A stretch of DNA of 64,000 nucleotides from Methylobacterium sp. (GTDB lineage Bacteria > Pseudomonadota > Alphaproteobacteria > Rhizobiales > Beijerinckiaceae): the NCBI GenBank assembly GCA_013823325.1, contig PNLY01000002.1, forward strand, positions 1 to 64,000, written 5' to 3'. Made by a program: the position numbers and the translations under genes. Under the pieces are notes generated by a model. It was not told the DNA's origin, searched no databases, and was given only the letters and a program-made list of their open reading frames with translations. Shown one piece after another: positions 25,112 through 41,108 of this stretch; positions within the stretch are counted from its first letter, which is position 1, and each line of letters begins with the position of its first letter.

Positions 25112-26188
25112 ATGGCCATGACCTCGTATCGCCTGCACCGGCCCGACGCGCTCCGCGCCCTCACCCGTGCCATGATCATCGCCGCCGGCTGGAGCGAGGA
25201 CGAGGCGACGGAGACCGCCGAGCATCTGGTGCTGGCCAATCTCAGCGGCCATGACAGCCATGGCGTCGGCATGCTGCCGCTCTATTTCAACTCGCTGGCC
25301 GACGGCAACCTGAAGCCGCAGTCCAAGCTCACCGTCCGCACCGAAGCGGGCCCCTTCCTGATCGCGGACGGCAATGTCGCGCTCGGCCAGCCGACGGCCC
25401 GCAATGCGGTCGACCGCGCCATCGCGATCGCGCAGGTCGGTGGCGTCGCCGTGCTCAACCTGCTCGATTCCCACCATATCGGCCGGATCGGGCATTATTC
25501 CGAGGTCGCCGCGGCTGCAGGGCTGATTTCGGTGTTCTGGGTCAATGTCGCCGGACGTCCGCCGATCGTCGCGCCTTTTGGGGCGAAACAAGCGCGCTTC
25601 GGCACCAATCCGATCGCGATCGGCCTGCCGGTGCCGGGCGGCGAGCCGCTGATCCTCGACTTCGCCACCAGCCGCATGGCGCATGGCAAGGCGCGGGTTG
25701 CGCTCAACAAGGGCGTCACCGTGCCGGAAGGCTACATCATCGATGGCGAGGGCCGCCCGACCGTCGAGCCCCGGCACATCTTCGCGCAGCCGGACCTGCC
25801 ACTGGGGGCGCTGCTGCCCTTCGGCGACCACAAGGGCGCCGGTCTCTCGCTGATCGCAGAATTGCTCTCGGCCGGGCTGATGGGCGCGGCCCGCATCGAC
25901 GAGAAGCCACACAAGAGCTGGATCATCAATTCGCTGTTCGGCGTGCTGATCGATCCGGCCCGGCTCGAACCCGATGCCGGCCTCCGGCAGCAGCGGATTG
26001 AGAGCTACCTCACCTTCGTACGCGCCGCCGCGCCGCAGGATCCGTCACAGCCCGTGCTGGCGCCCGGCGACAAGGAGCGCAGGACACGGATCGAGCGCGA
26101 GCGCGACGGCATCCCGCTCGACGACGAGACCTGGTCGCAGATCGTCGCGGCCGCCAAGGCCCATGGCGTCGACGCCGAGAGCTTCTGA
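25112..26188 (+). CDS. Malate/L-lactate dehydrogenase (Ldh2 family) oxidoreductase
   Basis: 358 residues. NAD(P)-dependent 2-hydroxyacid dehydrogenase of the Ldh_2 fold, which is distinct from classical MDH. Typical stretches are LANLSGHDSHGVGMLPLY with the catalytic His, NHH-like DSHHIGRIGHYSEVAAAAG, FGTNPIAIGLPVPGG and the glycine-rich LPFGDHKGAGLSLIAELLSAGL. It is a distant paralogue of the ComC-type enzyme at 33290-34255. It stands alone, so the substrate (malate, sulfolactate, ureidoglycolate or similar) cannot be fixed. Two in-frame ATGs, 25112 and 25118, compete. Confidence 0.87.
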   Translation: MAMTSYRLHRPDALRALTRAMIIAAGWSEDEATETAEHLVLANLSGHDSHGVGMLPLYFNSLADGNLKPQSKLTVRTEAGPFLIADGNVALGQPTARNAVDRAIAIAQVGGVAVLNLLDSHHIGRIGHYSEVAAAAGLISVFWVNVAGRPPIVAPFGAKQARFGTNPIAIGLPVPGGEPLILDFATSRMAHGKARVALNKGVTVPEGYIIDGEGRPTVEPRHIFAQPDLPLGALLPFGDHKGAGLSLIAELLSAGLMGAARIDEKPHKSWIINSLFGVLIDPARLEPDAGLRQQRIESYLTFVRAAAPQDPSQPVLAPGDKERRTRIERERDGIPLDDETWSQIVAAAKAHGVDAESF

Positions 26189-31473: not shown

Positions 31474-33174
31474 ATGACCGATGCAGCCACCCTCGCCCGC
31501 CGGATCGCGCAAGGACGCGGCGACGAGCCGGCCGATCTCGTCATCCGTGGCGCGCAGCTGTTCGATCTCGTCTCGGGCGAGCTGGTCCAGACCGATATCG
31601 CGCTCTGCGGCGACACGATCGTCGGGACCCATGGCCACTACGAGGGCAAGGCCAGCTTTGATGCGAGCGGCCTGATCGCCGTGCCCGGCTTCATCGACAC
31701 GCATCTGCATGTCGAATCCTCGCTGGTGACCCCGCTCGAATTCGAGCGCTGCGTGCTGCCGCACGGTGTCACCACCGCGATCTGCGATCCGCACGAGATC
31801 TCCAACGTGCTCGGCGCCGAGGGCATCCGCTATTTTCTCGACTGCGCCGAGGTGATGCGCATGGATTTGCGCGTGCAGCTTTCGAGCTGCGTGCCGGCGA
31901 CGCATCTGGAGACGGCGGGCGCGGCGCTGGAGGCCGGCGACCTCACTCCGTTCATGGACCATCCCAAGGTGATCGGCCTTGCCGAGTTCATGAACTTTCC
32001 CGGCGTGCTGCATCGCGATCCCGGCTGCCTCGCCAAGCTGGAGGCCTTTTCGCACCGGCATATCGACGGCCATGCCCCGCTGGTGCGCGGGCTCGACCTC
32101 AACGGCTATCTCTCCGCCGGCATCCGCACCGACCACGAGACCACGACCGCCGAGGAGGCCCGCGAGAAGCTCGCCAAGGGCATGGCTATCCTGATCCGCG
32201 AGGGCTCGGTCTCGAAGGACCTGCATGCGCTGATCCCGCTGATCAGCCGCGATGCCTCGCCCTTCCTCGCCTTCTGCACCGACGATCGCAATCCGCTGGA
32301 CATCGCCGAGGAAGGTCATCTCGACTATATGATCCGCACCGCGATCGCGCATGGCGCGGATATCCTCGCGACCTATCGCATCGCGAGCCTCTCCGCAGCG
32401 CGGAACTTCGGCCTGTTCGATCGCGGTTTCATCGGTCCCGGCAAGCGCGCCGACATCGTGCTGGTCGACGATCTCGCCACCTGCCGGGTCAAGCAGGTGT
32501 TTGCCGGCGGCAGGCTGGTCGAGGGCCCGCTGTTCGCAGACCGAAAGGCAGTTCCGCCCGTCGGCCTCGCCAGTGTCCGCAGCCACAGGCTCGCGCCGGA
32601 GGATTTCGCGTTGAAGGCGCGCGATGGCGAGACGCCTGTGATCGGCGTCGTGCCCGGCCGGATCATCACCGAGCGGCTTTCGATGCGCCTGCCGGAGCGC
32701 GCTGGGCTCGCCCTGCCCGATCTCGCTCAGGATGCGGTCAAGGTCACCGTGATCGAGCGCCATGGCCGCAATGGCGGCATCGCCTCGGGCTTCGTCCATG
32801 GCTTCGGCATGACGCACGGCGCCATCGCCTCATCGGTCGGGCATGACAGCCACAATCTCTGCATCGTCGGCGTCGACGAGGCCTCGATGGCGGCGGCCGC
32901 CAACCGGCTGATCGAGACCGGCGGCGGCTTTGCCGTGGCCGATGGTGGCAAGGTCACGGCCGAGCTGGCGCTGCCTGTCGCCGGACTGATGAGCGACCAG
33001 CCCTTCGAGACGGTGCGGCACGGGCTGGAAGGTTTGCGCGCGGCGGCGAAGGCGCTCGGCGTGGTGCTGGCCGAGCCCTTCTTGCAGGTCGCCTTCCTGA
33101 CCCTGCCGGTGATCCCGCATCTGAAGATCACCGACAAAGGCCTTGTCGATGTTGATCGATTCGATTTTGTTTGA
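31474..33174 (+). CDS. ade: Adenine deaminase
   Basis: Converts adenine to hypoxanthine and ammonia for purine salvage or catabolism. The 566-residue amidohydrolase carries the family's metal site [22 protein letters not shown] with [14 protein letters not shown] after it, then [21 protein letters not shown] and the C-terminal [19 protein letters not shown]. Length and motifs match bacterial Ade rather than YfkA-type deaminases. A GAGGAGCC ribosome-binding site precedes the ATG. No other purine gene is adjacent. Confidence 0.95.
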
Positions 33175-33289: not shown

Positions 33290-34255
33290 TCAGAGAGCGA
33301 CTTCGATCCCTTCCGCTCGCGCCTTGGCCCGCAGCCCGTAGCGCCGCATGCCCGGCAGCCGCGTTCCCGGCTGCTCCTCGATCGCGTGTGTCAGCAGCTT
33401 CATGCGCTCGGCGAACCAGTTGCCGCCCATACTCGCCGGGTCGATGGCGAGGATGAGCTGGCCGGTGTCCGGCGGGCCGCCCTTGTCGTCGAGGAAGGAC
33501 GAGGCCTGGAAAGCGAAATGCGTGCCGACCAGCGCTGCGGCGAGGATCTCGACCATCATGGCGAGCGTCGCGCCCTTGGCGTCGCCGAGCGGCACCATGG
33601 TGCCGGCGATCGCGGCCGCCGGGTCGGTGGTCGGCTTGCCCTGGGCGTCGAGGGCCCAGCCCTCGGGGATCGCCTCGCCCTTCTGTTTGGCGGCGACGAT
33701 CGGGCCGCGCGCCACCTTGGACAGCGCCATGTCGATCACCAGCGGCTCGCGACCGGCCAGCGGCGCGGCAAACGCGATCGGATTGGTGCCGAAGACCGGC
33801 TGGGCGCCACCCCAGGGCGCCATCGCGCCGGGCGTGTTGGCGAAGAGCAGCGCGACGAGGCCCTGCTCGGCCAGCCGCTCGACATGCAGGCCGGCGGCGC
33901 CGCAATGGTTCGAGCGGCGGATCGGGGCTGCGGCGATGCCCTGCTTGCGCGCGATCTCGGGCAGTTCGATCACGGCGAGGTCGATCGCCGGATAGGCAAA
34001 GCCATGGGCGGCGTCGATCGCCAGCACGCCGGGCTTGGGCTGGCGCGCGATCGGCACGGCCTGCCCGTCGATCTTGCCGGAGCGCAGCATGGAAATGTAA
34101 GTCGGGACGCGCGACAGCCCGTGGCCCTTCAGTCCGTCGGCCTCGGCCATGACCAGCGCCAACGCGACGGAGGCCGCATTGGCGGGCGAGGCGCCGGCCT
34201 CGATGAAGAGACCTGCGACCCTCTGCTCGGCCGCTTCCAGCGAGAGCTTCGTCAT
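33290..34255 (-). CDS. comC: (R)-sulfolactate dehydrogenase, ComC type
   Basis: 321-residue Ldh_2-family NAD(P)H-dependent 2-hydroxyacid dehydrogenase. Motifs are MAEADGLKGHGLSRVPTYI, RRSNHCGAAGLHVERLAEQG, FGTNPIAFAAPLAG and PLGDAKGATLAMMVEILAA. ComC reduces sulfopyruvate to (R)-sulfolactate and is known from sulfolactate degraders. The assignment rests on its place at the end of a suyA-suyB operon directly with slcC: its ATG overlaps the slcC stop by ATGA. In isolation a malate or ureidoglycolate dehydrogenase would be equally plausible. Confidence 0.83.
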   Translation of the reverse strand: MTKLSLEAAEQRVAGLFIEAGASPANAASVALALVMAEADGLKGHGLSRVPTYISMLRSGKIDGQAVPIARQPKPGVLAIDAAHGFAYPAIDLAVIELPEIARKQGIAAAPIRRSNHCGAAGLHVERLAEQGLVALLFANTPGAMAPWGGAQPVFGTNPIAFAAPLAGREPLVIDMALSKVARGPIVAAKQKGEAIPEGWALDAQGKPTTDPAAAIAGTMVPLGDAKGATLAMMVEILAAALVGTHFAFQASSFLDDKGGPPDTGQLILAIDPASMGGNWFAERMKLLTHAIEEQPGTRLPGMRRYGLRAKARAEGIEVAL

Positions 34256-35181
34256 GCCCAGCCCTCCAGCGCCGCCATCACCCGCTCGGCGACGAGACCG
34301 GAGACTCGCCCGTTCGATTCGACCGTATTGCCGGCAATATGGGGCGTCAGGATCAGGTTGGGCGTGCCGGCGAAGAGCTTTGCGCCATCGGCCTTGAGTG
34401 GCTCCTGCTCGAAGACGTCGAGCGCCGCGCCGCCGAGGCGCCCGCCTTTCAGCGCCGCGACCAGCGCCGCCTCGTCCATGATGCCACCGCGCGCCGCGTT
34501 GATCAGGATGGCATCCGGCTTCATCTTCGCGAAGGCCGCCTCGCCGATCAGCCCACGCGTTTCGGGGGTCAACGGCAGGTGGATCGAGATCACGTCCGAG
34601 GTCGACAGCAGCGCGTCGAGCTCGAGCTTCTCGATGCCCTGCCAGGCATCGCCAGCCGGGACATAGGGATCATAGGCGGCGACGGTCATGCCGAGCGCCC
34701 TGGCATGGCGCGCCGCATCGCGGGCGATCGCGCCGAAGCCGACCAGCCCCATGCGCTTGCCGGCGATCTCGCGGCCGATCAGCTTGGTCTTCGGGAACTC
34801 GCCGGCCAGCATGGCGGCGTTGGCGAAATAGGCCCCGCGCAGCAGCGTCATCGCCGTGCCGATCACGTACTCGACCACGGAGAGGCTGTTCGCACCGGTC
34901 GCCGGGAAGACCTGGATGCCGCGGGCCGAGCAGGCCTCCATGTCGATATTGTCGAGCCCGACGCCGAGCCGGCCGACGACCTTGAGGTTCTTCGCACCGA
35001 CCAGCAGCGCGCCGCGAACCTGCGTCTGGTTGCGCACGATCAGCGCCGGCACGTCGGCTACGAGCTGTGCGAGCTCGTCGGGCTTGCCGAAGAGGTCCGG
35101 GTCATGGTGCACGCTGTAGCGCGCCTTCAGCGCCGCCACCGCCGCGTCGTCCATGAATTCGGTGATGACGATGTCGGTCAT
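34252..35181 (-). CDS. slcC: (S)-sulfolactate dehydrogenase, SlcC type
   Basis: 309-residue D-isomer-specific 2-hydroxyacid dehydrogenase. The NAD-binding motif MGLVGFGAIARDAARHARALG is GxGxxA-like, and VRNQTQVRG, INAARGGIMDEAAL and the C-terminal LTPHIAGNTVES give the catalytic Arg, Glu and His. SlcC oxidises (S)-sulfolactate to 3-sulfopyruvate with NAD+. Context (comC downstream, suyZ upstream, suyAB) supports this over plain phosphoglycerate dehydrogenase; it lacks the ACT domain of SerA. ATG at 35181 is preferred over 35193. Confidence 0.85.
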   Translation of the reverse strand: MTDIVITEFMDDAAVAALKARYSVHHDPDLFGKPDELAQLVADVPALIVRNQTQVRGALLVGAKNLKVVGRLGVGLDNIDMEACSARGIQVFPATGANSLSVVEYVIGTAMTLLRGAYFANAAMLAGEFPKTKLIGREIAGKRMGLVGFGAIARDAARHARALGMTVAAYDPYVPAGDAWQGIEKLELDALLSTSDVISIHLPLTPETRGLIGEAAFAKMKPDAILINAARGGIMDEAALVAALKGGRLGGAALDVFEQEPLKADGAKLFAGTPNLILTPHIAGNTVESNGRVSGLVAERVMAALEGWA

Positions 35182-35205
35182 GGCTCTTTCCACTGTGAGG
35201 TTCGC

Positions 35206-36258
35206 TCAGCCGAGCAGGATGATCCCGCTTGTGGCGACGACGAGGATGACGAGGCTGGTGCCGGTGACCACGGCGAGATGGCGCCAGCCGAGCCGGGCCA
35301 TCGCCGCGATCGAAGTGCCGAGGCCGAGCGCCGCGATCGCGATCAGCAGGCCCCAGCGCGAGATTTCGAGGAGGATGTCGCGCACCGGCAGATAGATGCC
35401 GGCGAGCCAGGCCTGCGTGCTCAGCACGCTGTTGACCAGGCACATGATCAGGAAGACGAAGGCGAAGACCGGGACCGGGACCTTGGCGTCGCCATGGGTC
35501 TCGCCATGGCGGGTCAGCCACCAGCCGACGATCAGCACCGCGGGCAGCAGCAGGAAGACCCGGAACAGCTTCACGATGACAGCTGCGTTTGCCGCCTCGT
35601 CCGAGACGGCCTGGCCGGCGCCGACGACCTGAGCGACGTCGTGGATGGTTGCCCCTAACATGACGCCGGTCTGCTGCTGCGAAAGGCCGAGCCAGACGCA
35701 GAGCAGCGGATAGGCCAGCATCGCGACCGTGGCGAGCACGTTCATCGCGATCACGGTGAAGGCGGTGTCGGCGGCCTTGTTGCGATAATCGGGCACCACC
35801 GTTGCCGTGGCGAGCGCGGCCGAGGCGCCGCAGACGGCGGTGGCGACGCCGCCCAGCGCCCCGACGCCGGGCTCGCGGCCGAGCAGACGCGCCAACACGA
35901 AGCCGGTGACGACCGTCACGACCATGGAGACGATGACGAGCACGGCCGTACCCAAGCCGAGCGCAGCAATGTCGCCGAGCGCGACGCGCAGGCCGAGCAG
36001 CGCGATCGCCCAGCGCAGCAGCTTCTTCACGCAGAAGGTCATGCCCGGCTCGAAGCGCTTGGTGTTGGCGATCGGGTGCAGGATCATGCCGATCACCAGC
36101 GCGATGACGACGGCCGGGATGCCGACACGCCCGCCGGCGAGTTGCTTCAGGACAGGCTCGGCAAGGACGGAGGCGATCGCCACCATTGCCGACAGGGCGA
36201 TGCCTGGTGTCAGCCGCGCCAGCATGCCGCCCTTCGCCGCTTCCGTGAGTGTCACCAT
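35206..36258 (-). CDS. suyZ: Putative sulfite exporter, UPF0324/YeiH family
   Basis: 350 residues with about ten hydrophobic helices and the YeiH/UPF0324 signature: GLRVALGDIAALGLG, GGVATAVCGASAALATATVVPDY and GATIHDVAQVVGAGQAVS. In sulfonate-degrading bacteria a UPF0324 protein (SuyZ) is encoded beside suyAB and is thought to export sulfite released by the lyase. Its ATG overlaps the stop of the GNAT gene as TGATG, giving translational coupling. A 24-nt gap separates it from slcC. Transport of sulfite is inference from context. Confidence 0.83.
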   Translation of the reverse strand: MVTLTEAAKGGMLARLTPGIALSAMVAIASVLAEPVLKQLAGGRVGIPAVVIALVIGMILHPIANTKRFEPGMTFCVKKLLRWAIALLGLRVALGDIAALGLGTAVLVIVSMVVTVVTGFVLARLLGREPGVGALGGVATAVCGASAALATATVVPDYRNKAADTAFTVIAMNVLATVAMLAYPLLCVWLGLSQQQTGVMLGATIHDVAQVVGAGQAVSDEAANAAVIVKLFRVFLLLPAVLIVGWWLTRHGETHGDAKVPVPVFAFVFLIMCLVNSVLSTQAWLAGIYLPVRDILLEISRWGLLIAIAALGLGTSIAAMARLGWRHLAVVTGTSLVILVVATSGIILLG

Positions 36259-36854
36259 CAATCGAGCCTGATCAGAAAGCGCAGATGCGGTTCGGTGCCG
36301 TAGCGCGGGTTGACGAAGGATTCGACGAAGACGCCGCCATTCTTCTCGATGACCCGACGCGAAGCATGATTGTCGGGATCGCAAGTGATCTCGACCTGCG
36401 TCAGGCCGACATCGCGCGCTTCATCGAGAATCAAGGCCAGCGCCTGCGTGCCATAGCCGCGGCCACGATGGGCCGGCAACAGCGTATACCCGATATGGCC
36501 CAGCACATGCTCCGGCAATAAGGTCGTGCCCTCCTGCCAGCGCAGACTGATCGAGCCGACCAGCGGCTCGCCGGGCTGGTCGAGCGCGACGATCCAGCGC
36601 AAGCGATCCGGCAGACGCCTGACCTCGAGCCCATCAGGTAATCGAATCATCTCGCCTGGCCGAAGCAGCCAGGCAATGAACTCGTCCGGATCCTGCTCGA
36701 TCCGGACGAGATATTCGCCGCTGACGTCGCGCGAATTATTCGGCGACCAGCCATCGCGGAGCGCTGCAGCATAGGCCGGCAGCAGCATGCGCGAAGGCTG
36801 GCGCAGGCCGACCCGCGCCTCCCTTCCGCCGCGGTTCTGCGTTGCCGCGGTCAT
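36258..36854 (-). CDS. GNAT family N-acetyltransferase within the sulfolactate operon
   Basis: 198 residues. The acetyl-CoA-binding A motif is LPAHRGRGYGTQALALIL, with RWIVALDQPGEPLVGSISLR before it and CDPDNHASRRVIEKNGGVF after it, the pattern of RimJ/RimL-like small-molecule or protein acetyltransferases. It lies 7 nt after the suyB stop and its own stop overlaps the suyZ start, so it is a full member of the operon. A GNAT is not part of the sulfolactate pathway as I know it; detoxification or enzyme control would be guesses. Confidence 0.87.
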   Translation of the reverse strand: MTAATQNRGGREARVGLRQPSRMLLPAYAAALRDGWSPNNSRDVSGEYLVRIEQDPDEFIAWLLRPGEMIRLPDGLEVRRLPDRLRWIVALDQPGEPLVGSISLRWQEGTTLLPEHVLGHIGYTLLPAHRGRGYGTQALALILDEARDVGLTQVEITCDPDNHASRRVIEKNGGVFVESFVNPRYGTEPHLRFLIRLD

Positions 36855-36861
36855 CAGCTCC

Positions 36862-38145
36862 TCAGGCGCTGCGGTATAGCTTGGTCATCGAGAACTCGCG
36901 ATGGCCGAGCGCCTCGGCTGCGGTGAGGCGGCCATTCGCAGTGCGCACGATGTTCTCGATCAGTGCGTCGCCCGCCTGCGGGATGGTGAGGTCGCGGCGC
37001 AGGATCCCGGAGACGTCGACGTCGATGTGCTCGGGCATGGTGCGCATCGTCTTCGGATTGCCGGTGATCTTGATGACCGGAACGATCGGGTTGCCGATGA
37101 CGTTGCCCTGGCCGGTCGGGAAGGTGTGCACGACATAGCCGCCGGCCGCCATCAGGGTCACGCACTCGGCCGCCGCCGAGGAGGTGTCCATGTAATAGAG
37201 ACCAGGCCCCTTCTCCGGCGCCTGCGCCGGCTCCAGGATGTCGATGAACTTGCACTCGCGGCCGATCTTCTCGAGGTTGCCGAGCGCCTTCTCCTCGATC
37301 GTGGTCAGGCCGCCGGCGATGTTGCCCTTGGTCGGCTGCGAATCGGAGAGGTCGTCGGTCTTGTGGGCCTCGATGACGTCGTCCTGATAGGCCTTCCACA
37401 TCTTGTACCAGCGCTCGCCGACCTCCGGCGTCGCCGCGCGGGCCTTGCAGAGATGCTCGGCGCCGGTGATCTCCGAGGTCTCGCCGAAGACGCCGTAAAC
37501 GCCGCGCGGGATCCACTTGTCGTACATGTTTCCGACTGTCGGGCAGGACGACAGGCCGGTCGTGGTGTCCGACTCACCGCATTTGGTCGAGACCCAGAGC
37601 TCCTCGATGCCGCATTTCACGCGCTGCAATTCGGTCGCCCACTGGACGAACTCCTTGGCGACATAGGAGGCCTTGGCGATGGTGGCGATGTCGCCATGGC
37701 CCTCGATGCCGAAGCCGACCACCGGCTTGCCGGTCTTGGCGATGCCGTCGACGACGCGCTTGGTCCAGCCGTCCTCGATGCCGATGACCACGACGGCGGC
37801 GACGTTCGGGTTCGAGCCGGTGCCGATCAGCGTGCGGAAATGGACTTCCAGATCCTCGCCGAACTGCAGGCGGCCATAGGCGTGCGGGATGGCGAGCGTG
37901 CCCTTGATGTTGTTGGCGACGGCCTCGCAGGCGGCGTTGGAGAGATCGTCGAGCGGCAGCAGCAGCACATGGTTGCGCACGCCGACGCGGCCGTTCTCGC
38001 GGCGCCAGCCCATGAAGGAATCGAGGCTGCGGCCGGTCGGGCGCTTGACGAAAGGCGTCTTGAATTCGGGGGCTTCGATCTTGCGGCCCTTCACCCGGGC
38101 GAGCTTGCCTTTGACGAGGTCGAAGTTGGCGACGATGGAAGACAT
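36862..38145 (-). CDS. suyB: (2R)-sulfolactate sulfo-lyase, large subunit
   Basis: 427 residues of the UxaA/GarD-type dehydratase family without the SAF domain, which is encoded separately as suyA. The sequence shows [21 protein letters not shown] at the N terminus, [19 protein letters not shown] with the metal-binding cysteine, and [18 protein letters not shown]. SuyAB removes sulfite from (R)-sulfolactate, giving pyruvate. The split into small and large subunits also occurs in altronate and galactarate dehydratases; the slcC-comC-suyZ context points to sulfolactate. The ATG at 38145 is chosen because the upstream frame overlaps suyA. Confidence 0.88.
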
Positions 38146-38216
38146 TGGCGTTTCCTGGATGGTTGGGGCTCGACCTGATGGGAGCCCTCGGGATTGGGAT
38201 GAACGAAGACCGGCAC

Positions 38217-38504
38217 TCACCAGCGCTTGGTCTTGACGTTGTGCACGTGGAGATGCTCGCCCTTGCCGATGTCGGCGATCGCCTTGCCGATGTCCTGGCC
38301 GTATTTCCAGATCGTATCGCCCTTCTTGATGTCCTTGAGCGCGACCTTGTGGCCGATCGGAATGTCCATCTTGGCGGCGAGGCGGAAGTCGGAATTGTCG
38401 TGGGTGACGACACAAAGCATGTCGGTCCCGGCCTTCAGGCCCTCGACGACGACGACGCCGACCGTGTCCTTCTTCTCGTGCACCAGCAGATGCGGCTTGC
38501 TCAT
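38217..38504 (-). CDS. suyA: (2R)-sulfolactate sulfo-lyase, small subunit (SAF domain)
   Basis: 95 residues that make one SAF domain: [20 protein letters not shown], then [44 protein letters not shown]. SuyA is the small partner of SuyB. It is the first gene of the minus-strand operon, 71 nt ahead of suyB. The start at 38504 matches the family; the longer frame is not. Its upstream region (38505-38601) is shared with the divergent GntR gene and holds a perfect palindrome. Confidence 0.88.
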
Positions 38505-38585
38505 GGCTGATATCCCTGACCGTTTCCCGTGCTCTTCACGCCGTGGCCCAGTTCGTGAAATCGGGCTCGACGCGGCTGCGCTCAA

Positions 38586-38599
38586 GTCTTATATAAGAC
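38586..38599. promoter_or_regulatory. 14-bp perfect palindrome, candidate operator of the GntR/HutC regulator
   Basis: GTCTTATATAAGAC sits between suyA and the regulator, 2 bp before the regulator's ATG. It fits the GT-N(n)-AC form of HutC-type GntR operators. On both strands it contains a TATAAG -10-like hexamer. For suyA a TTGTGC -35-like hexamer lies 16 bp upstream of it. Binding would block both promoters. Confidence 0.6.
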
Positions 38600-38601
38600 A
38601 T

Positions 38602-39366
38602 ATGAGTGTGCACAAGCTCGAAATCGCAGGGCAGTCCCGCGAGCCCGATACGCCGGAGACGCTTGGCTTCCGGCCGCTCTACCGGCAGGTGAAGGCGATC
38701 TTCGTGCGCAGGCTCATGGACGGGGTCTGGGCGCCGGGCGCGATTTTGCCGAGTGAGGGCCAGCTCGCCGCCGAGATCGGCGTCAGCCAGGGCACGGTGC
38801 GCAAGGCGCTCGACGAGCTCGCGGCCGAGAACCTTGTCGTGCGCCGCCAGGGCCGCGGCACCTTCGTCGCCGAGCACGACGAGCGCCGCATCCTGTTCCA
38901 GTTCTTCAAGCTGGCGCCGGACCAGGGCGCGCCGCGGTTTCCCGACAGCGTCGTGCTTTCGGTGACGACCGCCCTCGCCAACGAGGCCGAGCGCGCAGCG
39001 CTCGACCTCGCCGAGGAGGCCGCCGTCATCCGTATCCGCCGGCAGCGCGCTTTCGACGGCGCGCCGCTGATCGTCGAGACGCTCAGCCTGCCGCAGCAGC
39101 TTTTCCCGGGATTGGAGAACGGGCCGATCCCGAACAATCTCTACAGCCTCTATGCCGGTCACTACGGCATCACCATCGCCAATGCGCGCGAACGGCTGAA
39201 GGCGGTGGCGCTCTCACCGGAGGATGCCGCCGCGCTGGGTGTCACGGCAGGCGAGCCCGCCCTGCAGATCGATCGCATCGCCCTGTCGCTCGACGGCACG
39301 CCCGTCGAGCACCGGCTCAGCCTGTGCCTGACCCAGGAGGTTCACTACCTGTCGGACCTGCGTTGA
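38602..39366 (+). CDS. GntR family regulator, HutC subfamily, of the sulfolactate locus
   Basis: 254 residues. The N-terminal winged helix reads PLYRQVKAIFVRRLMDGVWAPGAILPSEGQLAAEIGVSQGTVRKALDELAAENLVVRRQGRGTFVA, diagnostic for GntR. A UTRA (HutC) effector domain follows (from about residue 105, with NNLYSLYAGHYGITIANARERL and ALQIDRIALSLDGTPVEHRLSLC). It is divergent from suyA, with the 14-bp palindrome between them, so it is probably the operon's repressor, relieved by sulfolactate or an intermediate. The ATG lies immediately after the palindrome; leaderless translation is possible. A longer upstream frame overlaps suyA and is rejected. Confidence 0.88.
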   Translation: MSVHKLEIAGQSREPDTPETLGFRPLYRQVKAIFVRRLMDGVWAPGAILPSEGQLAAEIGVSQGTVRKALDELAAENLVVRRQGRGTFVAEHDERRILFQFFKLAPDQGAPRFPDSVVLSVTTALANEAERAALDLAEEAAVIRIRRQRAFDGAPLIVETLSLPQQLFPGLENGPIPNNLYSLYAGHYGITIANARERLKAVALSPEDAAALGVTAGEPALQIDRIALSLDGTPVEHRLSLCLTQEVHYLSDLR

Positions 39367-39543
39367 GCCCTCCCCGGCCTTCGGGACCATTTGAGGACAG
39401 CTCCCTTACATCGAAGCAATATCAATCTGCTATGGCATATTTATAAAGTTTCGCTCGAAACAGAGCGAGCCAAGCTCGCGGACCAAGAGCCACGAGATTT
39501 CAACCAAGCCGACGCAGAGCGGCCACCCCACCGGAGGAAACGA

Positions 39544-40548
39544 ATGATCGCCCATGTCCGCAGATTCCTTGCGACGCGCCGCGGCGTCCTGGCAGGTCTC
39601 TGCCTGCTAGGCTTCGGCACATCCGCCCTGGCCCAGAGCTTTCCGACTAAACCGATCACCCTGATCGTGCCTTTCGCCGCCGGCGGGCCCAGCGACGTGA
39701 TCGCCCGCCTGCTCGGCGAGCATATGGGCCGCACGCTCGGCCAGCAGGTCATCGTCGAGAACATCGCCGGTGCCGGCGGGACAGCCGGCGCCAAGCGCCT
39801 CGTTGCCGCCGACCCGGACGGGCACACCATGCTCATCCACCACCTCGCGCTCGCGGCAGCGCCAGCGCTCTACGCCAATCTCGGCTATGACACGCAGACC
39901 GCCTTCGCGCCGGTCGGCCTCGTCAACACCGGCCCGATGGTGATCGCCGGCAAGCTCGCTTTGCCCCCGGTCGACGGCAAGGCCTTCTTCCCTTACGCCA
40001 AGCAGCAGGCCGAGAAGCTCACCGTCGCCCATGCCGGCGTCGGCTCGAACGCGCATCTGTGCGCGGTGCTGATCTCGCAGGCCTTGGGCGTCAAGCTCGC
40101 CCAGGTCGCCTATCGCGGCACCGGGCCGGCAATGAACGACCTCGTCGGCGGCCAGGTCGACGTGCTCTGCGACCAGTCGACCACGGCGGTGCCGCAGATC
40201 CAGTCCGACAAGATCCGCGCCTATGCGGTGACCTCGCCGGAGCGGCTCGCCGTGCTGCCGAACGTCCCGACCTCGCGCGAGGCGGGCACCGAGATCGACA
40301 TGACGATCTGGCACGGGCTCTACGCGCCGAAGGGCACGCCGACCGCAGCGCTCGACAAGCTCAACAGCGCGCTACAGGCCGCGCTGAAGGACCCGGCCGT
40401 GCTCGAACGCTTCAAGTCGGTCGGCACCAGCGCCTTCCCGACGGCCGAGTGGACACGCGCGGCCCATGCCAAGCGCTTTGCCGCCGAGGTAGCCAAGTGG
40501 GGAACGGCGCTGAAGGCCGCCGGGTTGACACCGCAGAACGCCAACTAG
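39544..40548 (+). CDS. Tripartite tricarboxylate transporter substrate-binding protein (Bug/TctC family)
   Basis: 334 residues. A signal peptide with a twin-Arg-like start ([20 protein letters not shown]) and a SALAQ-S cleavage site precedes the Bug-type fold: YPT-like [25 protein letters not shown] and the later [11 protein letters not shown] and [11 protein letters not shown] stretches. Bug proteins bind carboxylates in the periplasm for a TctAB pair, which is not encoded here. A Bug protein (SlcH) of a TTT system serves sulfolactate uptake in some marine degraders, so sulfolactate is the likely ligand. It follows the regulator, with a good GGAGGA ribosome-binding site. Confidence 0.85.
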
Positions 40549-40598: not shown

Positions 40599-41108
40599 AT
40601 GAGCAATCTCGTCGCCCTGGACCACTTCCTCGCTCTGCCCGAGCACGCGCGGCTGCTCGGGTTGGATCTCGGCACCAAGACGATCGGCCTCGCTCTGTCC
40701 GATGTGGAGCGCCGAATCGCGACGCCGCTGGAGACGATCCAGCGCATCAAGTTCCGCCAGGACGCTGCGGCACTGCTGAAAATCGCGGAGAAGCATGCGA
40801 TCGCCGGTTTCGTGATCGGCCTGCCGCTCAATATGGACGGAACGGAAGGCCCGCGGGTCCAGTCGACCCGCGCCTTCGTGCGCAATCTCGCGCCGCTGAC
40901 GGCGCTGCCGATCGTGTTCTGGGACGAGCGCATGTCTACGCTCGCTGTCACACGCACCCTGCTCGATGCCGATGCCTCGCGCGCCCGGAGGGCTGCCGTC
41001 GTCGACAAGATGGCCGCCGCCTATATCCTGCAGGGTGCGCTCGATCGGCTCGCCCGTCTCGGATCATCGGACGGGGACGAGCGAGAGGACGACTGGGCTA
41101 CGGAATGA
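40599..41108 (+). CDS. ruvX: Putative pre-16S rRNA nuclease / Holliday junction resolvase-like RuvX
   Basis: 169 residues of the YqgF/RuvX RNase H-like fold: [19 protein letters not shown] holds the first catalytic Asp, [15 protein letters not shown] follows, and [39 protein letters not shown] carries the second acidic residue and the basic helix. In bacteria the protein trims the 16S rRNA 5' end. The ATG at 40599 gives the family N terminus; upstream in-frame sequence is not family-like. Its last 11 nt overlap, tail to tail, the next gene. Confidence 0.93.

Follow-up and report, generated by a model that had tools for sequence, protein, structure and literature searches.

The window analysed here is a stretch of 64,000 nucleotides from contig PNLY01000002.1 (assembly 95% complete), and between positions 33290 and 40548 it carries eight genes that very probably make up a functional sulfolactate catabolic operon of a Bosea under the control of a GntR-type regulator. 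Sulfolactate is a sulfur compound from plants and algae and an intermediate of sulfosugar and 2,3-dihydroxypropane-1-sulfonate (DHPS) turnover. Judged by its genes, the locus is an unremarkable and well-supported example of a pathway that has already been published. What it would add to that pathway is a candidate operator, an unexplained apparent replacement of the acetyltransferase (GNAT) gene, and a series of losses in related genomes that hints at a second use of the dehydrogenase SlcC.

An earlier note on this DNA, made from the letters alone, had described a minus-strand operon in the order suyA-suyB-GNAT-suyZ-slcC-comC, divergent from a GntR/HutC gene and a gene for a Bug-type binding protein. 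This arrangement was recovered in full, with the operon running from 38504 to 33290, all eight reading frames open, and the expected Pfam domains in both plus-strand genes. The overlaps that it had reported were also found, at two of the five operon junctions (ATGA at slcC/comC, 34252-34255, and TGATG at GNAT/suyZ); the other three junctions are spaced by 71 bp (suyA-suyB), 7 bp (suyB-GNAT), and 24 bp (suyZ-slcC). Since this gene order, either including or lacking GNAT, is seen again in Bosea, Phreatobacter and others, and without GNAT in Sinorhizobium mexicanum, the arrangement is not one of chance.

Here and below, the genus means the 37 genomes bearing the window's genus label (Bosea), the window's own included; the relatives searched were these 37 and 24 genomes of other families, 61 in all; and locus comparisons used 80 named loci of SuyB relatives, many of which are closely related and hence not independent. 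A close SuyB (at least 87% identity) is present in 28 of the 37 genomes. ComC at an identity of at least 82% was found in 16 of 16 SuyB-bearing and 0 of 7 SuyB-less genomes, a count that covered 23 of the 37. The nonsynonymous divergence (dN) of suyA, suyB, slcC, and comC from near relatives is low. Gene order, the clade of SuyB, and this co-occurrence together support the SlcC-ComC-SuyAB sulfolactate pathway that the earlier note had proposed.

Lyase and dehydrogenases

The SuyB of the window shares 99% identity with the protein of Bosea lupini LMG 26383, on which ground the host is taken to be a Bosea. It is 79-81% identical to those of Paracoccus versutus and Sinorhizobium, 69% to that of the C. 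pinatubonensis hps-suy cluster, and 60% to that of Rhodococcus, in contrast to 27-39% for UxaA-type proteins among the matches listed. Plasmid records gave a similar gap, with 314 matching SuyB and, among the best 40 of these, 13 at 60% or more and the next best at 39%. SuyA is 60-99% identical to the SuyA adjoining SuyB in the 80 named loci. In a SuyB tree of 92 rows, the 89 suy-linked sequences, with the C. pinatubonensis hps-suy member among them, lie on one branch (support 99) apart from Escherichia coli UxaA and two UxaA/GarD paralogs of the window's own genome, as the earlier note had predicted. These three rows form very long branches, so the depth of the split is uncertain, although the split itself is clear. 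The linkage of suyAB in other loci supports this placement: in Paracoccus versutus the pair is accompanied by genes for a sulfite oxidase and a SuyZ-like exporter, in C. pinatubonensis it lies downstream of hpsN and hpsO, and in S. mexicanum it stands in the order gntR, suyA, suyB, suyZ, slcC, comC. No SuyAB model was among the NCBIfam matches, and the sole match for SuyA and SuyB, galactarate dehydratase, fell far below its cut-off.

SlcC is a SERA/PGDH-like protein with an NAD-type loop, linked to suyAB. It matches TIGR01327 at 295 bits, below the cut-off of 454, and profile searches gave no ACT domain match in it. A PGDH-like SlcC lacking an ACT domain is to be expected, because the Chromohalobacter salexigens SlcC is placed within or beside the SERA clade in an excerpt of PMC6303947, which also ties a loop aspartate to NADH preference. 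The corresponding D171 is present in 77 of 77 suy-linked SlcC sequences, that of the window included. ComC is an Ldh_2 dehydrogenase linked to suyAB and slcC. Both enzymes have suy-linked dehydrogenases as their nearest relatives and are 27-50% identical to paralogs in their own genome (for ComC, 50% to the closest and 31-38% to the remainder). In fast trees, SlcC grouped with 82 of the 92 other rows, 75 of them suy-linked and 7 from the remnant loci described below (support 95), and with none of its own paralogs, and ComC grouped with 79 of the 81 other suy-linked rows (support 89). The two dehydrogenases thus fall with the SlcC and ComC groups, as drawn by suy linkage.

Table 1. Features of the sulfolactate locus and its borders, in window positions.
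Feature	Position	Strand	Assignment
comC	33290-34255	-	Pfam Ldh_2; presumed (R)-sulfolactate dehydrogenase
slcC	34252-35181	-	Pfam 2-Hacid_dh and 2-Hacid_dh_C; presumed NAD-dependent (S)-sulfolactate dehydrogenase, PGDH/SERA-like
suyZ	35206-36258	-	Pfam PF03601, 223.8 bits; membrane protein, presumed sulfite/sulfate exporter
GNAT gene	36258-36854	-	Pfam Acetyltransf_3; acetyltransferase inside the operon, copy replaced or strongly diverged
suyB	36862-38145	-	Pfam GD_AH_second and GD_AH_C; putative large subunit of (R)-sulfolactate sulfo-lyase
suyA	38217-38504	-	Pfam SAF; putative small subunit of (R)-sulfolactate sulfo-lyase
palindrome GTCTTATATAAGAC	38586-38599		predicted operator; 2 bases 5' of the gntR start, 81 bases upstream of the suyA start
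gntR	38602-39366	+	Pfam GntR and UTRA (HutC type); presumed local repressor
bug	39544-40548	+	Pfam TctC; TctC/Bug periplasmic binding protein, no TctA/TctB adjoining
adeC flank	31474-33174	+	Pfam Adenine_deam_C; adenine-deaminase-like; one border of the site compared between genomes
ruvX flank	40599-41108	+	Pfam RuvX; other border of the site compared between genomes

A second Ldh_2 dehydrogenase gene lies about 7 kb from comC (25145-26143, plus strand), its product being 35% identical to ComC over 238 residues.

Predicted operator, transport and alternative readings

The palindrome GTCTTATATAAGAC occurs exactly, once per genome, in all 28 genomes of the genus with a close SuyB, and the 9 that lack one have no copy. 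Among the 24 genomes of other families, an exact copy was found in 2, both times beside suyB. Of the 80 named loci, 45 have the exact palindrome at most 320 bases upstream of suyA and another 33 have it there within 2 substitutions, leaving two, L045 and L073, in which it was not found at that tolerance; random stretches drawn from these loci, the real site falling inside some of them, contained it in 39 of 1600 cases. The P. versutus locus has it with 2 substitutions and that of S. mexicanum with 1. In 49 of the 80 loci suyA and a gntR homologue are divergently oriented, and 48 of these 49 carry the palindrome within 2 substitutions. A GntR/UTRA regulator thus stands together with a palindrome conserved at the promoters that it is predicted to bind, and the palindrome is a strong candidate operator for gntR. 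The name suyR has already been given to a regulator in the literature (PMC6018796, excerpt, citing earlier work); among the best-ranked literature matches, we found no operator for suyR and no paper with the palindrome core.

Several loci carry a second copy. One lies 97 bases before tauE in Methylobacterium radiotolerans, others near the start of the TauE reading frame in L074 and L079 (where the start codons are uncertain), between bug and gntR in L052, and before gntR in L078; further second copies were seen in L050, L064, and L070. In S. mexicanum, a copy with 1 substitution (L159:8983-8996) stands 30 bases before a gene for an ABC solute-binding protein, which suggests that the suy regulator may also control an ABC importer there. 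For the window genome we make no claim of a regulon beyond the locus, because the one other site found within 2 mismatches equals the level of the reversed-pattern control.

By homology to the published pathway, SlcC would oxidise (S)-sulfolactate with NAD+ to sulfopyruvate and ComC would interconvert sulfopyruvate and (R)-sulfolactate, the predicted substrate of SuyAB. The regulator would repress the operon and its own gene from the palindrome until released by an inducer, probably sulfolactate itself, and the GNAT would be an accessory that the pathway can dispense with. Sulfite would then be exported by SuyZ or oxidised by SoxC or SorAB-like enzymes, with all of these roles assigned by homology. 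As a PF03601 membrane protein in a suy operon, SuyZ is of the presumed exporter type; it scores 124.6 bits against TIGR00698 (YeiH), below the cut-off of 232.6. Oxidation is also possible, since the genome has a SoxC that passes its model cut-off and a SorAB-like pair that falls short of the cut-offs. The soxC gene, on contig C64, is followed by a cytochrome-like gene, so that Sox-type sulfur oxidation is encoded in the same genome.

For import, the TctC/Bug protein would bind sulfolactate in the periplasm and hand it to a tripartite transporter encoded elsewhere. The genome has 10 TctA genes, none of them on the window's contig. The stretches around nine of the ten hold a TctC-like match (the exception is L213), and the nearest to the Bug protein among them, at 48% identity, belongs to a TctB-TctA-TctC set on contig C93. 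The Bug-type binding protein of the earlier note is thus present as a TctC gene, but it stands alone, without membrane partners at the locus; lone TctC proteins are known (PMC5812351, excerpt).

A number of results weigh against the sulfolactate reading. No TctA or TctB gene adjoins bug, and an SlcHFG-type tripartite transporter was not found at the locus. The membership of SlcC and ComC in their clades is defined by gene linkage to suy genes, which is a weak point, and there are outliers: Rhodococcus L158, which falls among paralogs in both trees, is the sole suy-linked row of 76 others outside the SlcC group, and Rhodoplanes L073 joins it among the paralogs in the ComC tree. The name ComC stands by domain, linkage, and grouping, but not by the methanogen ComC model NF040650, against which the protein scores 189.2 bits with a cut-off of 500. 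The PDB chain that it matches best belongs to a delta1-piperideine-2-carboxylate reductase, at 227 bits compared to 138 for the L-sulfolactate dehydrogenase 2x06. With regard to the operator, 5 of the 7 other-family genomes with SuyB at 73% or more lack an exact palindrome, the reversed pattern used as a control turns up in 4 of the 61 genomes, and no palindrome within 3 substitutions was found in C. pinatubonensis L114, Rhodobacteraceae SC52 L157, or Rhodococcus L158.

The best surviving alternative, which we nonetheless consider unlikely, keeps the operon and makes its natural substrate a precursor (sulfofucose, cysteate, or DHPS) that is degraded through sulfolactate, in place of imported sulfolactate. 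Such settings exist: in C. pinatubonensis suyAB lies within the hps cluster, in Rhodobacteraceae SC52 it stands beside hisD, SDR, and alcohol-dehydrogenase genes arranged like that cluster, and S. mexicanum, with its palindrome before an ABC solute-binding protein gene, is a strain named in a paper on sulfofucose (PMC12421959, excerpt). Against this, a TctC gene is linked to the operon, as in the published SlcHFG (PMC5812351, excerpt), and no sulfosugar genes were noticed in the operon, although no search was aimed at genes for sulfoquinovose, sulfofucose, or cysteate. DHPS as a source was rejected, as HpsN has a single match in the 95% complete genome, at one locus and 40% identity, and this is presumably HisD.

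It is less probable still that the lyase is an altronate- or galactarate-type hydro-lyase acting on a sugar acid that the dehydrogenases also serve. SuyB does share a fold family and 29 invariant positions with the UxaA/GarD rows, and its sole sequence match of solved structure is a galactarate dehydratase. The SuyB tree rejects the idea, however, and at 50 positions that never vary among the suy rows each of the three UxaA/GarD rows has another residue or a gap. The lyase is also linked to a PF03601 exporter and two dehydrogenases, and the genome holds two separate UxaA/GarD-type paralogs. Least probable of all is a decaying locus that no longer works, as seen at the same site in the nine genomes of the genus that keep only remnants, since in the window every gene is open, the palindrome is intact, and suyB shows a dN of 0.004-0.011 at a synonymous divergence (dS) of 0.21-0.32 relative to loci L004-L008.

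The acetyltransferase gene and the remnant loci

A GNAT gene sits between suyB and suyZ in several families, yet of the 28 genomes of the genus with SuyB only 8 were found to carry it in the operon, which indicates that the pathway does not need it. Nor does the family appear specific to sulfolactate, as 13 of 19 genomes with a GNAT match have no suy gene within about 1.5 kb. Its AlphaFold2 model (pLDDT 86) is predicted to resemble RimJ/RimL/SpeG-like proteins and other GNATs only. Compared to the syntenic copies of L004-L008, the window's GNAT has a dN of 0.40-0.41, as opposed to 0.004-0.076 for the seven other genes of the locus and 0.075-0.097 for the control comparison of the GNAT of L004 with those of L005-L008. 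Either a distant homologue took the place of this one gene or the gene diverged on its own; replacement is favoured by the raised dS (0.90-0.97 in the window, 0.50-0.55 in the controls). No donor was found, with the best non-self match at 60% among the 61 relatives, 59% among 397 genomes of the order, and 46.5% among plasmids. At L031:9335-10396, a GNAT frame of 354 aa has what looks by eye like a second GNAT-like stretch behind the first.

Remnants occupy the same site, bordered by adeC and ruvX, in nine genomes of the genus, namely gnat alone in two, slcC-gnat in six, and slcC-suyZ-gnat in one. Eight of the nine lack a close SuyB. The ninth, Bosea thiooxidans (L025/L200), has slcC-gnat at the old site and a suy locus at another, a mosaic with SuyA and SuyB 94-96% identical to the window, SlcC 59%, and ComC 62%, which looks re-acquired. 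A further SuyB-less genome, G015, gave no strong GNAT match. On a midpoint-rooted tree of adeC and dprA (32 rows; L010, L013, L016, and L025, each missing one gene, were left out), the remnants belong to a single group of ten with good support, which also contains the intact L028, a distribution that requires two state changes. The simplest history is loss from a full operon, because suyZ keeps its operon order in one remnant and because adeC also stands beyond comC in the full operons of the more distant L039, L046, L048, L050, and L054. The remnant gaps held no relics of comC, suyAB, gntR, or bug, with matches only at E 0.15 or worse.

The seven remnant slcC genes are full length (310 aa) and under purifying selection, with a median dN/dS of 0.10 and a maximum of 0.16 (21 pairs, NG86); for the remnant gnat the values are 0.16 and 0.29 (36 pairs). 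In the remnant-versus-full and full-versus-full dN/dS groups, the window was kept out and its values were given apart. Remnant SlcC retains the motifs NTARGG, YEQEP, and TPHIAG, which we take to surround the catalytic R, E, and H. This triad is that of PMC6303947 (excerpt). Relative to 25 full-locus sequences there are 21 fixed differences, including D171H and Y173R in the cofactor loop (L025 was kept out of this list and its residues compared alongside). H171 and R173 are present in all seven remnant sequences, and by the rule in the same excerpt the replacement of D171 predicts a loss of NAD preference, from which we infer that remnant SlcC uses NADP(H). In the four slcC-bearing remnant genomes covered (G011, G017, G020, and G021), no ComC at 82% identity or above was found, so SlcC is not half of this racemase pair there.

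These observations raise the possibility, which we offer tentatively and lean somewhat against, that slcC and GNAT form a separable module: in one Bosea subclade suyAB, comC, gntR, and bug would have been lost, and SlcC would have turned from an NAD-dependent sulfolactate oxidiser into an NADP(H)-dependent 2-keto-acid reductase working with the GNAT. If so, what remains of an operon for a food source would be a pair of genes serving a new function.

Relation to known sulfolactate systems

With close SuyB in 28 of its 37 genomes, Bosea joins the likely consumers of sulfolactate. The near-invariant candidate operator sequence could serve as a handle for suy regulons across Hyphomicrobiales, exporters such as tauE included, and the remnants document operon loss as a natural series, with one enzyme apparently retained for a different task.

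Denger and Cook reportedly described slcHFG, slcC, comC, suyAB, and suyR in 2010, all in one strain of C. salexigens. Like the window, this system has two dehydrogenases, the lyase, a TctC-type binding protein, and a named regulator, the likeness of SlcC, ComC, and SuyR being one of description and not of sequence; unlike the window, it has a complete tripartite transporter. These C. salexigens genes are cited in excerpts of PMC12421959, PMC5812351, PMC6303947, and PMC6018796. The racemase-pair biochemistry of SlcC and ComC that the earlier note had relied on is likewise in print: in Taurinivorans muris the two enzymes isomerise (S)- to (R)-sulfolactate via sulfopyruvate, and SuyAB yields pyruvate and sulfite (PMC10507020, excerpt), and the pair is cited for Chromohalobacter (PMC12421959, excerpt). 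T. muris LT0009 has the same SlcC-ComC-SuyAB set, which in the window forms one operon with suyZ and GNAT and has a lone binding protein.

The C. pinatubonensis hpsNO-suyAB cluster shares the SuyA/SuyB pair with the window but differs in its linked DHPS dehydrogenases, in having no slcC or comC match, and in its lack of the palindrome noted above. On plasmid pMRAD01 of M. radiotolerans (L116), a dctA-type carrier gene lies between suyAB and slcC-comC and a TauE gene lies upstream, with no SuyZ match there; exporter and importer thus vary between suy loci. The plasmid cluster of S. mexicanum (L159) has no GNAT match and carries nearby a gene for an ABC solute-binding protein that has a palindrome to itself, but it resembles the window in that gntR is divergent from suyA-suyB-suyZ-slcC-comC and the palindrome, with its single substitution, lies upstream of suyA.

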